Position numbers and translations under genes: made by a program
Notes under the pieces: model-generated
What the model saw: the letters and a program-made list of their open reading frames with translations, nothing else
Databases searched by the model: none
What the model was told of the DNA's origin: nothing
Source: an uncultured Ruminococcus sp.
Lineage (GTDB): Bacteria; Bacillota; Clostridia; Oscillospirales; Ruminococcaceae
NCBI GenBank assembly: GCA_947174365.1
Contig: CAMWIR010000005.1
Coordinates: 1-44,401, forward strand
Length of the DNA stretch: 44,401 nt
Direction: 5' to 3'
Part shown: piece by piece, positions 29,468 through 36,792 of the stretch
How the letters are laid out: the number at the start of each line of letters is the position of its first letter
Numbering within the stretch: the first letter of the stretch is position 1

Positions 29468-30127
29468 TTAACATTCCGGCCGGTCAAGCAGCTTCAGAAG
29501 AGTATCGGGCTTGAAGGGTTTTGCAATGAAATGCTCCGCACCGAGCCTGAGCGCTTCCATGACATTTTCCTTTGTACTCTGAGCAGACAGCATTATGACC
29601 TTTATTCCGGGATATTTTCTTTTTATCTCGGCAAGCACTTCAAGGCCGTTCATTCCGGGCATACCTATATCCAATGTGCAAACGTCCGCTTTTTCCCTTT
29701 CAAGCAAGTCAAGACACTCCCTGCCGTCCGCCGCAGATAACACTCTGTAATTGCTGCGGCCCAGAATATCGCAAAGCATTGACCGCAGAAAAGAGGCGTC
29801 GTCCACCACAAGCACAGTCTTTGTATCTGCGCATTTCCGCTTTTCTTCGCAAGCTCCGAAAATGCAGTTTATCTGATCCTGACAAAGCATATCCCCGTTA
29901 TTTGCTTCCGCGGGCGCTTTACATTCGGTCTCATTGCAGCCAAGCAGCACATCTGCGGATACCCCGAGATATTTCACAAGCCTCGGTATCATTGCAATAT
30001 CCGGCAGAGAAAGTCCGTTTTCCCACCGTGAAACAGCCTGCGGAGTAACAAAAAGCGCACAAGCCATTTCCTCCTGTGTAACATTTTTCGCTAAGCGGTA
30101 TTTTTTTATCATAGCACCGAGTTCCAT
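29468..30127 (-). CDS. XRE helix-turn-helix - receiver domain fusion regulator
   Basis: A 219-residue protein with an N-terminal XRE domain (residues 1-65; VTQEEMACALFVTPQAVSRWENG) and a C-terminal CheY-like receiver (about 103-217). The receiver keeps Asp109-Asp110 (VLVVDD), the phosphoacceptor Asp153 (TLDIGMPGMNG), Ser181 and Lys203 (AKPF). The linker holds six cysteines (64, 69, 82, 88, 93, 99), which could bind metal or act as a redox switch. DNA-binding domains usually lie C-terminal to the receiver, so this order is reversed. No sensor kinase is encoded nearby. The gene has its own consensus promoter. Confidence 0.9.
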   Translation of the reverse strand: MELGAMIKKYRLAKNVTQEEMACALFVTPQAVSRWENGLSLPDIAMIPRLVKYLGVSADVLLGCNETECKAPAEANNGDMLCQDQINCIFGACEEKRKCADTKTVLVVDDASFLRSMLCDILGRSNYRVLSAADGRECLDLLEREKADVCTLDIGMPGMNGLEVLAEIKRKYPGIKVIMLSAQSTKENVMEALRLGAEHFIAKPFKPDTLLKLLDRPEC

Positions 30128-34435: not shown

Positions 34436-34954
34436 TTATACTTTTGCCAATTCTTTCTTGGAATTTTTCTCTATGTATTCTGAACAAACTTTTTCAAGCA
34501 AAAGAAAATCATTGCAACGTCTTGCCAACGGTGTATCATTACCGTTTTCTAATTTATGCTTATACAGCATAACTGCATTCTTTCGGATTTTTCCCTTATA
34601 GACTTAATATATCTGTATTCTGCCAACAACAACGCTTTATACTTGCAGTCCTGCACAGTTTCAAAATCAACATATTCACGTTCGGTTTTCGGAACCGGAA
34701 ACATATTGTTTAGATTTAACACAGCATACCTAAGTACCTTAATGAAATCCATACTTTCTTTCATTCTTTCATGCTTTGGCTTAAAAGATGACAGTGGCAC
34801 AAAATAATCCAATCCATTAACTTGCATAACGATCCCTATGTACTTCCGAGCATTTTTTTGTCCATTCTTGCTGTTGCGGAACATATGCGGCGCATATGGA
34901 ATTATTATAGTTTATATAATCTCTGTTTATCTCATAAAATTTGATATCTTCCAT
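34436..34954 (-). pseudogene. toxN: Frameshifted ToxN/AbiQ-family type III toxin endoribonuclease
   Basis: Three consecutive frames together spell a complete protein of about 172 residues, the normal ToxN length. Frame one (from ATG 34954, behind GGAGG) gives MEDIKFYEINRDYINY. Frame two gives ARKYIGIVMQVNGLDYFVPL, SSFKPKHERMKESMDF, LNLNNMFPVP and YRYIKSIREK. Frame three gives IRKNAVMLYKHKLENG and ARRCNDFLLLEKVCSEY, ending at TAA 34436. The first break is at an A7 run (34853-34859), where six A would keep frame. The second is at an A5 run (34588-34592), where six A would keep frame. ToxN proteins cleave RNA and are held inactive by repeat RNAs. As read, the toxin would be truncated, unless these are sequencing errors or slippage restores the frame. 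Confidence 0.85.
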
Positions 34955-34976
34955 TGATCCTCCGACTTTAAACAGA

Positions 34977-35001
34977 GAGGGCAGACAAATTGCCTGCCCT
35001 C
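34977..35001 (-). terminator. Terminator between toxI RNA and toxN
   Basis: GAGGGCAG and CTGCCCTC form an 8-bp stem with a nine-base loop, followed by TCTGTTT on the minus strand. Type III systems typically have a leaky terminator here that limits toxin relative to antitoxin RNA. Confidence 0.82.
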
Positions 35002-35150
35002 CTGTTATGATCGCACTTTTGAGCGGCGAAACGCTCACTTGTAAACGTCTTGATTTGTGAGCCAAGAGAAGCTCTCATATAAATTTCTCATTTATGGGCT
35101 GAGATACACCCACTACGTAAGAGACAGGCTTGTCCACCTGTTACTTTGCA
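35002..35150 (-). ncRNA. toxI: Candidate toxI antitoxin RNA with three degenerate hairpin repeats
   Basis: The transcript from the promoter at 35156-35184 to the terminator carries three tandem units of 36, 37 and 38 nt (35090-35125, 35053-35089, 35015-35052). Read on the minus strand, each unit has a hairpin at the same relative place: TGGG...CCCA, TGAG...CTCA, TGAGC...GCTCA. Each is followed by an A-rich segment. A possible earlier partial unit has ACAGG...CCTGT. ToxI, AntiQ and similar RNAs are arrays of about 35-45 nt pseudoknot repeats processed by the toxin. Sequence identity between the units is low, so this assignment rests on position, period and structure. Confidence 0.65.
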
Positions 35151-35155
35151 CTTTT

Positions 35156-35184
35156 ATTATAACATGTCTATATTGGATTGTCAA
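35156..35184 (-). promoter_or_regulatory. Promoter of the toxIN locus
   Basis: Perfect consensus TTGACA (35179-35184), 17 bases, TATAAT (35156-35161) on the minus strand, as expected for an abundant antitoxin RNA. Confidence 0.92.
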
Positions 35185-35234: not shown

Positions 35235-35738
35235 TTACTCAAAAAGCCCCTCCATTTTATGGATAAGCAGTTTTCCGCCCTCTATGTCGGTTTTTTCGAT
35301 AACATCGGGAATGGCAGGAATGAGATAAACATTATCGCCGCTTTTTATATGGTAAACATCATTCGCACCCGTGCTTGTGACCTCCGAAAGAACGCCGTAA
35401 ACCTCGCCGCTGTCAGCGTCCTCCACGGAAAGCCCTATAAGATCACGGATAAAATAAGTGCCCGCAGGCAGCTCCACATCATCACGGTTCATATAGAGAA
35501 TTTTCCCCCGCAGGGTCTCCGCTTTTTCGGGAGTGTCAACACCCTCCAGTTTCATTACCGCCACATTTTTGTGAGGACGGCTTTTTTCCACATTCACAGG
35601 GGTCTTGCCCTTGTTAAAATAAAGCTCATCAAAGCTGCAAAGGAATTCGACGCTGTCGCACCACGGCTCGACCCGCACTTCACCTTTAAGTCCCTGCACC
35701 GCCACTACCTTTCCTATTTCAAGAAACTGCTCTGTCAT
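35235..35738 (-). CDS. rimM: Ribosome maturation factor RimM
   Basis: A 167-residue RimM, a 30S assembly factor that binds S19 and helps 16S rRNA maturation. The N-terminal barrel has EIGKVVAVQGLKGEVRVEP, and the PRC-barrel half has RDLIGLSVEDADSGEVYGVL and YLIPAIPDVIEKTDIEGGKLLI. Its start overlaps the end of the ankyrin gene by 20 bases, with AAAGGAG inside that gene. In most Firmicutes trmD follows rimM; here the toxIN promoter begins about 50 bases after its stop. Confidence 0.96.
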   Translation of the reverse strand: MTEQFLEIGKVVAVQGLKGEVRVEPWCDSVEFLCSFDELYFNKGKTPVNVEKSRPHKNVAVMKLEGVDTPEKAETLRGKILYMNRDDVELPAGTYFIRDLIGLSVEDADSGEVYGVLSEVTSTGANDVYHIKSGDNVYLIPAIPDVIEKTDIEGGKLLIHKMEGLFE

Positions 35739-36534
35739 ATTCCTGTTCTCCTTTGTTTTCCGATTCCATCTTCACCTTGAGCCACTCGATATAAGGGCGG
35801 TAAAGCAGTTCTTCGATACGCTCATACCGCTGCCTTTCCTCATAATCAAGCGTTTCCTCTTTTGCCACATATTCATCAAAATAATATCTGAATGGCAGCA
35901 TTTCCTTATTCTCCCTGTATGCCGAAGAAGCAGGGTCAGCGCCATGTGACACCAGCAGCTCCACTAAGTCCGCATTAAAGTCTTCGTCATACATGGCGGC
36001 ATAGTGAAGGGCGGGTACGAAAAGATCGGGTCGGTAATCGGGGTCTGCCCCTGCGGAAAGGAGCAGGGAAACATTTTCATTGCACTGATTTTTGCAGGCA
36101 AGATCCAAAAGGGTCATATCCTCCGCACCGTTGGGGTTTGCTCCGCTTTCAAGGAAGAGTCTGAGCATTTCGCTGTCGTCGAGCATGACCGCTCTGTAAA
36201 CGGCAGTCCTGCCGTATCTGTTGCCGCCGTCGGGAGAAGCGCCCTTTTCGATCAGATTTTGTGCTGCCTTTACATTCCCATTTTCCGCTGCCAGATAGAG
36301 AATATCCGTATCGGAAAAGCTGCCCACGTCATAGCGGATATTAAGGTAAATGTAATAAACGGCGGGCAGGCAGCAGAGTATCCCCGCAAAAATAAGCCAG
36401 CCCATTATTTTACCGAACTTCTCATTTTTTTTCATTGACGTGTTATACAAAAAAATCGGCACACCCGTCAAAGCAATGCCGACAACACCTAACACCACAA
36501 CTGCGGTAATATGAGTAAGAATTGTGAGTATCAT
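35719..36534 (-). CDS. Membrane-anchored ankyrin-repeat protein
   Basis: About 271 residues. Two N-terminal membrane helices (TAVVVLGVVGIALTGVPIFLY and IMGWLIFAGILCCLPAVYYIYL) precede four or more ankyrin repeats (ILYLAAENGNVKAAQNLIEKGASPD, GRTAVYRAVMLDDSEMLRLFLESGANPN, and later units with LLSAGADPD and LLVSHGADP) and a charged C-terminus. The start is moved to ATG 36534 behind GGAG. It interrupts the usual khpA-rimM order and overlaps rimM. Ankyrin repeats mediate protein contacts; the partner is unknown. Confidence 0.88.
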   Translation of the reverse strand: MILTILTHITAVVVLGVVGIALTGVPIFLYNTSMKKNEKFGKIMGWLIFAGILCCLPAVYYIYLNIRYDVGSFSDTDILYLAAENGNVKAAQNLIEKGASPDGGNRYGRTAVYRAVMLDDSEMLRLFLESGANPNGAEDMTLLDLACKNQCNENVSLLLSAGADPDYRPDLFVPALHYAAMYDEDFNADLVELLVSHGADPASSAYRENKEMLPFRYYFDEYVAKEETLDYEERQRYERIEELLYRPYIEWLKVKMESENKGEQEYDRAVS

Positions 36535-36792
36535 AGCCTCATCTCCAAATAATTCCGAAATATCTTCCTTACGTTTTGCGCCCTGCATTCATGCGTCCTT
36601 TGCATTTTATGTGCATTTTATGCAACCCCTGCCTTTATACAAACCGCTGCTGCAAAATATACCGCTGAATAATCAGCATCGCCGCCCCAAAAATCATATA
36701 TGCAAATTTTCGGGGAAGCGGCTGTGCCGAATACTCAAACCGGCTATTTTGCTATAGCGGTTAGTATACACAAGAAACGCAGCCCGGGAAGA

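Follow-up and report, generated by a model that had tools for sequence, protein, structure and literature searches.

What kind of RNA is encoded by three small hairpins that precede a broken toxin gene in a gut bacterium, and what has become of the toxin? The locus lies in a window (i.e., the whole stretch of 44,401 nts that was analysed) from an uncultured Ruminococcus sp., in which an RNA array adjoins a damaged toxN gene. The original prediction described the array as three hairpin repeats whose primary sequence drifts while their pairs co-vary, and proposed it as a candidate antitoxin RNA.

An RNA array and a broken toxN gene on the minus strand

The three hairpin units are present as predicted, and the case for them is stronger than the original description suggested. 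They are encoded on the minus strand with a spacing of 37 and 38 nts, in the order promoter, short leader, three units, strong hairpin, GGAGG and toxN (Table 1). The pairs named at the outset (GGG/CCC, GAG/CTC and GAGC/GCTC) are real and form the first stem, S1, of an H-type pseudoknot. The predicted unit borders were about 10 nts away from those in Table 1, so that the earlier cuts fall between the loops and the arms with which they pair downstream, and the predicted range 35015-35125 leaves out the last arm of the second stem, S2 (35014-35011). The claim of covarying pairs holds for S1, but S2, which varies between the units with pairing kept, had been overlooked.

Table 1. Features of the antitoxin-toxN locus, in positions of the window
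Feature	Position	Strand	Description
Sigma-70 promoter	35156..35184	-	TTGACA 35184-35179, 17 nt, TATAAT 35161-35156; 12/12 consensus positions
ToxI unit A	35086..35111	-	Pseudoknot, S1 GGGT/GCCC, S2 TCTCA/TGAGA
ToxI unit B	35048..35074	-	Pseudoknot, S1 GAGC/GCTC, S2 TCTTG/CAAGA
ToxI unit C	35011..35036	-	Pseudoknot, S1 GAGC/GCTC, S2 TCGC/GCGA
Entire A-B-C array	35002..35113	-	Covariance model R1 (window excluded from the model): 107.9 bits, E 7.2e-22
Terminator-like hairpin in the antitoxin-toxN interval	34971..35006	-	Minimum-energy fold; weak T-run
RBS-like GGAGG ahead of toxN	34959..34963	-	Read from the sequence
toxN remnant (ToxN/AbiQ endoribonuclease family)	34436..34954	-	Two frame slips

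Units A, B and C each have the potential to fold into an H-type pseudoknot, as judged from their sequence by a descriptor composed of a 4-bp S1, a 3-nt loop and a loop segment of 4-5 nts pairing with an arm 5-7 nts downstream of S1 (i.e., S2). When the 210-nt stretch was shuffled 20,000 times with its dinucleotides preserved, no shuffle contained three consecutive descriptor units and 67 contained two at the observed spacing; the opposite strand holds one isolated match. The folding check suggested with the original prediction yields a common potential pseudoknot in all three units; in the window, S1 is fully paired (12/12) and the core of S2 is intact. Even when pseudoknots are left aside, the region folds better than its shuffles (z -3.9, 0/200). 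Rfam gave no match for the array at the gathering threshold, no ToxI-like family was found there at E up to 10, and the hairpin at 34971-35006 is absent from the output of the terminator scan.

The middle piece of the downstream gene matches PF13958 with 100.9 bits and the AbiQ model of PADLOC with an E of 1e-22, and an intact relative ToxN matches the solved ToxN 4ato (E 8e-19) as well as 2xd0 and 7d8o. In the window, the start (34954-34907) and the end (34588-34436) of toxN share one frame, the middle (34899-34588) is read in another, and the slips lie near 34,900 and 34,590. Both slips could stem from sequencing or assembly errors, in which case the window would hold an ordinary working ToxIN system: the draft genome comprises 223 contigs, the second slip adjoins a short A run and toxN is intact in most relatives. 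However, two slips occur within about 320 nts while the long neighbouring genes ffh, rimM and an ATPase gene stay open, toxN is also damaged in 6 of 83 assessable linked loci (L069, L073, L080, L085, L094 and L097; L093 lies at a contig edge) and it has been lost in relatives, which renders such an error improbable. Because its toxN frame is not intact, the locus is a ToxIN remnant rather than a working member of the family, and the original prediction says nothing of this damage. Programmed frameshifting was considered for toxN and rejected, since the damaged toxN genes of relatives break in different ways.

A second toxN in the same genome (G000 contig 1, 77276-77764; L001) has an open frame at a contig end, belongs to a distant subtype and is accompanied by near-identical repeats. 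Elsewhere in the window, a gene at 29468-30127 encodes an XRE-type helix-turn-helix fused to a response regulator receiver domain. An ankyrin-repeat protein gene (35719-36588) lies within the rpsP-rimM region, and its DNA is retained in G398, the nearest relative.

Three unit types conserved by position, with covarying pairs

An alignment of the ToxN piece of the window with seven relatives served as the query for related loci, from which the best 80 of 440 loci on genome contigs and 13 loci on viral contigs were taken. The units A-B-C occur in the same order upstream of most of these ToxN genes, whose hosts belong to Bacillota and Treponema. Among 84 loci with usable upstream sequence (window included), 56 carry A-B-C, 9 carry A-A-C and one carries C-A-C, the remainder having one, two or no recognised units. 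Since the descriptor demands pairing, the 100% pairing of this count is by construction and other tests were used for pairing. Likewise, the invariance of S2 in anchored units is circular, as the anchors contain S2, and an unanchored count was used instead. This count relied on pairing and disregarded the sequence, and it returned 65 arrays with exactly three units at a spacing of 29-40 nts. The first unit has the A-type S2 TCTC/GAGA in 60 of these 65 arrays and the second the B-type TCTT/AAGA in 53 (TCTC in 9 and CCTT in 3), while the 5′ arm of the third is the C-type TCGC in all 65.

The 16-nt cores of 26 distinct A-B-C loci are 59% identical between the units of one locus. Identity of like units across the 26 loci reaches 96% for A, 83% for B and 90% for C, and a unit is closer to the like unit of every other locus than to its own neighbours in 69 of 78 cases, which does not hold in the other 9. 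The units are thus three conserved types and not one drifting repeat; the drift of primary sequence assumed earlier was mistaken, because in many genomes the unit at a given position of the array retains its sequence. Unlike units are nevertheless not obligatory, because linked loci of the same clade include the A-A-C arrays (9/84), arrays of one or two units and arrays with other S2 stems. For example, L048, L084, L088, L090 and L097, mostly from Treponema, have other S2 stems or just two units; in L084, L088 and L097 the third unit is again TCGC/GCGA.

Covariation was followed in motif matches anchored on the loop, for which pairing was not required. Of the 88 A matches, 85 form all four S1 pairs, as do 57 of the 58 B matches and 70 of the 72 C matches, and the six exceptions were judged to be chance matches of the motif outside the array, mostly around the promoter. 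When 27 arrays other than that of the window are aligned, every one of the 702 cells is paired, so that the homologous loci do preserve the pairs, as the original prediction had proposed to check, and a covariance model built from these arrays scores the window at 107.9 bits. The alignment contains 30 double-change cells against 8.1 ± 2.9 after shuffling, with no shuffle out of 500 as high, and pairing falls to 36-54% when the partner is slid. The number of pairs with any double change (5, against 3.4 in shuffles; 43/500) is little above the shuffles because S2 hardly varies within a type.

Most of the covariation signal comes from unit B, the S1 of which takes the forms GAGC/GCTC, GAAC/GTTC, GGGC/GCCC, GGGT/ACCC and GAGT/ACTC. 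Three pairs of this stem vary, with at least 6, 4 and 7 changes, respectively, along the toxN tree, and pairing is never lost; these counts are rough because the tree, built on 100 columns, is poorly resolved (39 of 73 inner branches unresolved).

Under strict pairing, the S2 arms of the three types are largely orthogonal to one another. The complement of the A arm is found in 85 of 88 A tails, no B tail (0/58) and 2 of 72 C tails. For the B arm, the corresponding counts are 57 of 58 B tails, no A tail (0/88) and 1 of 72 C tails, and for the C arm they are 66 of 72 C tails, 4 of 88 A tails and no B tail (0/58). When G-U pairs are allowed, the B arm also pairs with 85 of 88 A tails.

The hairpins might also be due to chance or form a cis-regulatory leader without any role in a toxin-antitoxin system, given that the stems are short and the fold is of a common kind. 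Against this stand the 20,000 shuffles without a three-unit array, the covariation and the association of the array with ToxN in the majority of the 84 loci, and the chance of such an origin is consequently very slight.

A type III antitoxin with unlike units

The proposed identity as a ToxI-type antitoxin RNA is supported by the ToxN-family gene directly downstream, together with the common pseudoknot and the preserved pairs. The RNA is the ToxI of a type III (ToxIN) system, and its unlike units make it a new variant of type III antitoxin. In the proposed mechanism, the strong minus-strand promoter would drive a short RNA in which units A, B and C each fold into a different H-type pseudoknot. 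Where a leader is lacking, the promoter lies close enough that transcription may begin at unit A. A homologous ToxN would cut the transcript at common A/U-rich borders, and the resulting pieces would keep ToxN inactive. The unit borders read TTA..AAG between the units and TAACAG after unit C and, in loci with a longer leader, before unit A. Known ToxN enzymes cut A-rich sites, according to the accessible part of PMC8860590, and in the solved ToxIN complexes, as described in the accessible parts of PMC5086642 and PMC5772629, ToxN cuts between the units and each pseudoknot holds the toxin in a ring. If the ring, like that of solved ToxIN, were to hold three toxin molecules and three RNAs, a single transcript would provide one each of A, B and C. 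The explanation favoured here is that unlike S2 stems would keep neighbouring units from cross-pairing and the array from repeat slippage; individual units may also have roles of their own in a 3:3 ring.

The locus shares with ToxIN of Pectobacterium atrosepticum, Bacillus thuringiensis and E. coli the order promoter, pseudoknot units, putative terminator and toxN, as well as a unit length in the mid-thirties, the H-type pseudoknot and related ToxN proteins (4ato, 2xd0 and 7d8o). These systems are described as tandem repeats (PMC8860590, accessible part), whereas here three unlike units stand in a fixed order and toxN is broken in the window. Similarly, the toxin of the window matches the PADLOC model of AbiQ, the toxin of the AbiQ/antiQ system of Lactococcus, but antiQ, with about 2.8 repeats of 35 nts according to the accessible part of PMC5086642, is reported to consist of copies of a single unit. 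CptIN of Eubacterium rectale is also a type III system with a pseudoknot antitoxin (PMC4627078, accessible part); it differs by its longer units, its 2:2 complex and its toxin CptN, which comes from another family. The 106 bp candidate structured RNA HMP2_3156, located upstream of ToxN, may correspond to the A-B-C array RNA, a comparison based on length and position; its description in the accessible part of PMC8040213 makes no mention of three unlike pseudoknots or of toxin-less copies. More generally, the literature searched yielded nothing on unlike units in ToxI or on ToxI lacking its toxin, including the accessible passages of PMC5086642, PMC8860590, PMC4627078, PMC5772629, PMC8040213 and PMC10853763.

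The A-B-C array is not a tandem repeat, because its units share their architecture but have mostly unlike second stems. Tandem Repeats Finder gave no row for the window and, at a period of 28-90, detected none of 55 A-B-C arrays versus 36 of 45 other ToxIN loci, one of which, L162, is itself A-B-C. These other loci, as well as the accessible parts of PMC5086642 and PMC8860590, are in line with the earlier statement that the repeats of most known ToxI arrays are nearly identical. Because repeat detection misses units that are mostly unlike and individually conserved, and is a standard criterion (Tandem Repeats Finder was one in the type III screen of PMC8860590, as far as its accessible part goes), systems of this sort are likely under-counted. 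Fixed unlike units also help to address which contacts ToxN requires in a ToxI pseudoknot, as each array amounts to a swap experiment carried out by evolution. The type III families themselves were reportedly defined by a survey of 2012.

In other ToxIN arrays inspected by eye, S2 also differs between units with both arms changed (e.g., L018, L028, L031, L118 and L121), while L029, L147, L148, L151 and L160 retain a single S2 across their units. These are clear examples, as noise in a flexible pseudoknot chain precluded an automatic measure of identity for the 45 other ToxIN loci. The arrays of L118 and L121, both from viral contigs, alternate between two types of ToxI units, which is another form of unlike pseudoknots. 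In one ToxI unit of L119, a viral contig, an additional hairpin seems to separate S1 from the downstream S2 arm; this unit lies in the region upstream of the match at 2501.

Arrays without an intact toxin

The fate of the toxin was followed by searches starting from the RNA, with a sequence pattern and a covariance model built without the window. Within the genus, the model found arrays in 3 of 20 genomes and a pattern allowing one mismatch in 5 of 20, two of which were due to chance; these matches (G177 and G396; L184 and L185) were dropped, as no array surrounds them. Within the family, arrays were found in 2 of 396 genomes by the exact pattern and in 5 of 282 by the model, and within the phylum in 3 of 398 by the model. 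In total, 11 arrays were obtained, 9 of which have no intact adjacent toxN. The gene is intact in two cases (G765 and G238) and damaged in three, namely the window, G271 with the carboxy-terminal part only and G638 with about 12 codons. It is absent next to the remaining six: G398, G400, G298, two arrays in G147, and G262.

The toxin-less arrays differ in their preservation. G400 and G298 carry a complete A-B-C array with 12 of 12 S1 pairs, as does the window, and 11 of 12 pairs are kept in array C37 of G147 and 9 of 12 in its array C28; with its toxin, G765 has 11 of 12. At the same rimM locus as the window, G398 (rimM protein 95% identical) has a promoter, units A and C and the hairpin, with 7 of 8 pairs, unit B and one pair of C being lost, and G262 retains unit B alone (4/4 pairs). 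The model scores are 123.5 bits for G298, 112.8 for G400, 106.5 and 93.8 for G147, 48.9 for G398 and 42 for G262, compared with 81 to 131 bits for linked arrays, 27 of which are in the model by construction (L087 gave no match). Some orphans are therefore as good as linked antitoxins, while others are decaying.

Very probably, the window holds a decaying ToxIN system, in which a promoter-driven A-B-C pseudoknot antitoxin outlived its broken toxN. The toxin would decay first, because prior loss of the antitoxin would be lethal, and, since toxN is broken here, the array most likely persists as a relic antitoxin. Alternatively, orphan arrays could be kept by selection as trans-acting immunity RNAs against ToxN of the same subfamily encoded by phages or other mobile elements (i.e., anti-addiction). 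This would fit the six of 11 arrays without adjacent toxN and the three with a broken or truncated one, the promoter-like sequence and terminator of G298 and G400, and the scores of four arrays without intact toxN (123.5, 112.8, 107.9 and 106.5 bits) within the range of linked arrays. In G400, moreover, a double change has produced A-U at a pair of unit B that is G-C or G-T in all 57 counted units. A further argument comes from the prophage-like viral contig L137, where the same ToxIN, with A-B-C, is flanked by genes for the terminase large subunit and the major head protein on the one hand and an integrase gene on the other. Since this system lies among phage genes, A-B-C ToxIN travels on temperate phages, which makes trans-immunity by orphan arrays thinkable.

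However, the decay of C28 in G147, of G398 and of G262 argues against selection, and intact structure may merely reflect a recent loss of the toxin. In addition, ToxN of the same subfamily was not found elsewhere in the orphan genomes: the assemblies of G298, G147 and G262 gave no ToxN-family match and those of G398 and G400 distant ones only, although a toxN could be missed because the assemblies are incomplete (80-99% by estimate). Selection for trans-immunity thus appears doubtful, and decay after the loss of toxN remains the preferred reading of the window. Slightly more doubtful still is the combined proposal that unlike, position-specific three-pseudoknot ToxI arrays form a class missed by repeat-based surveys and that their toxin-less copies are stand-alone immunity RNA genes against ToxN on prophages and other mobile elements. 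Persistence as immunity factors has been proposed for protein antitoxins, and the toxin-less arrays make it testable for RNA antitoxins.

An exact 16-base search for toxin-less arrays on viral contigs returned 14 stretches (including L113), seven being ToxIN loci adjoining toxN and seven chance matches without an array. An orphan array gave no match in phage and plasmid DNA, nor did the window locus in plasmids. In G398 (L166, 620-1494), a duplicated fragment of the rimM 3′ end adjoins the toxin-less array, and the histidine phosphatase gene lies on the opposite side of the array compared with the window, which represents a local rearrangement.
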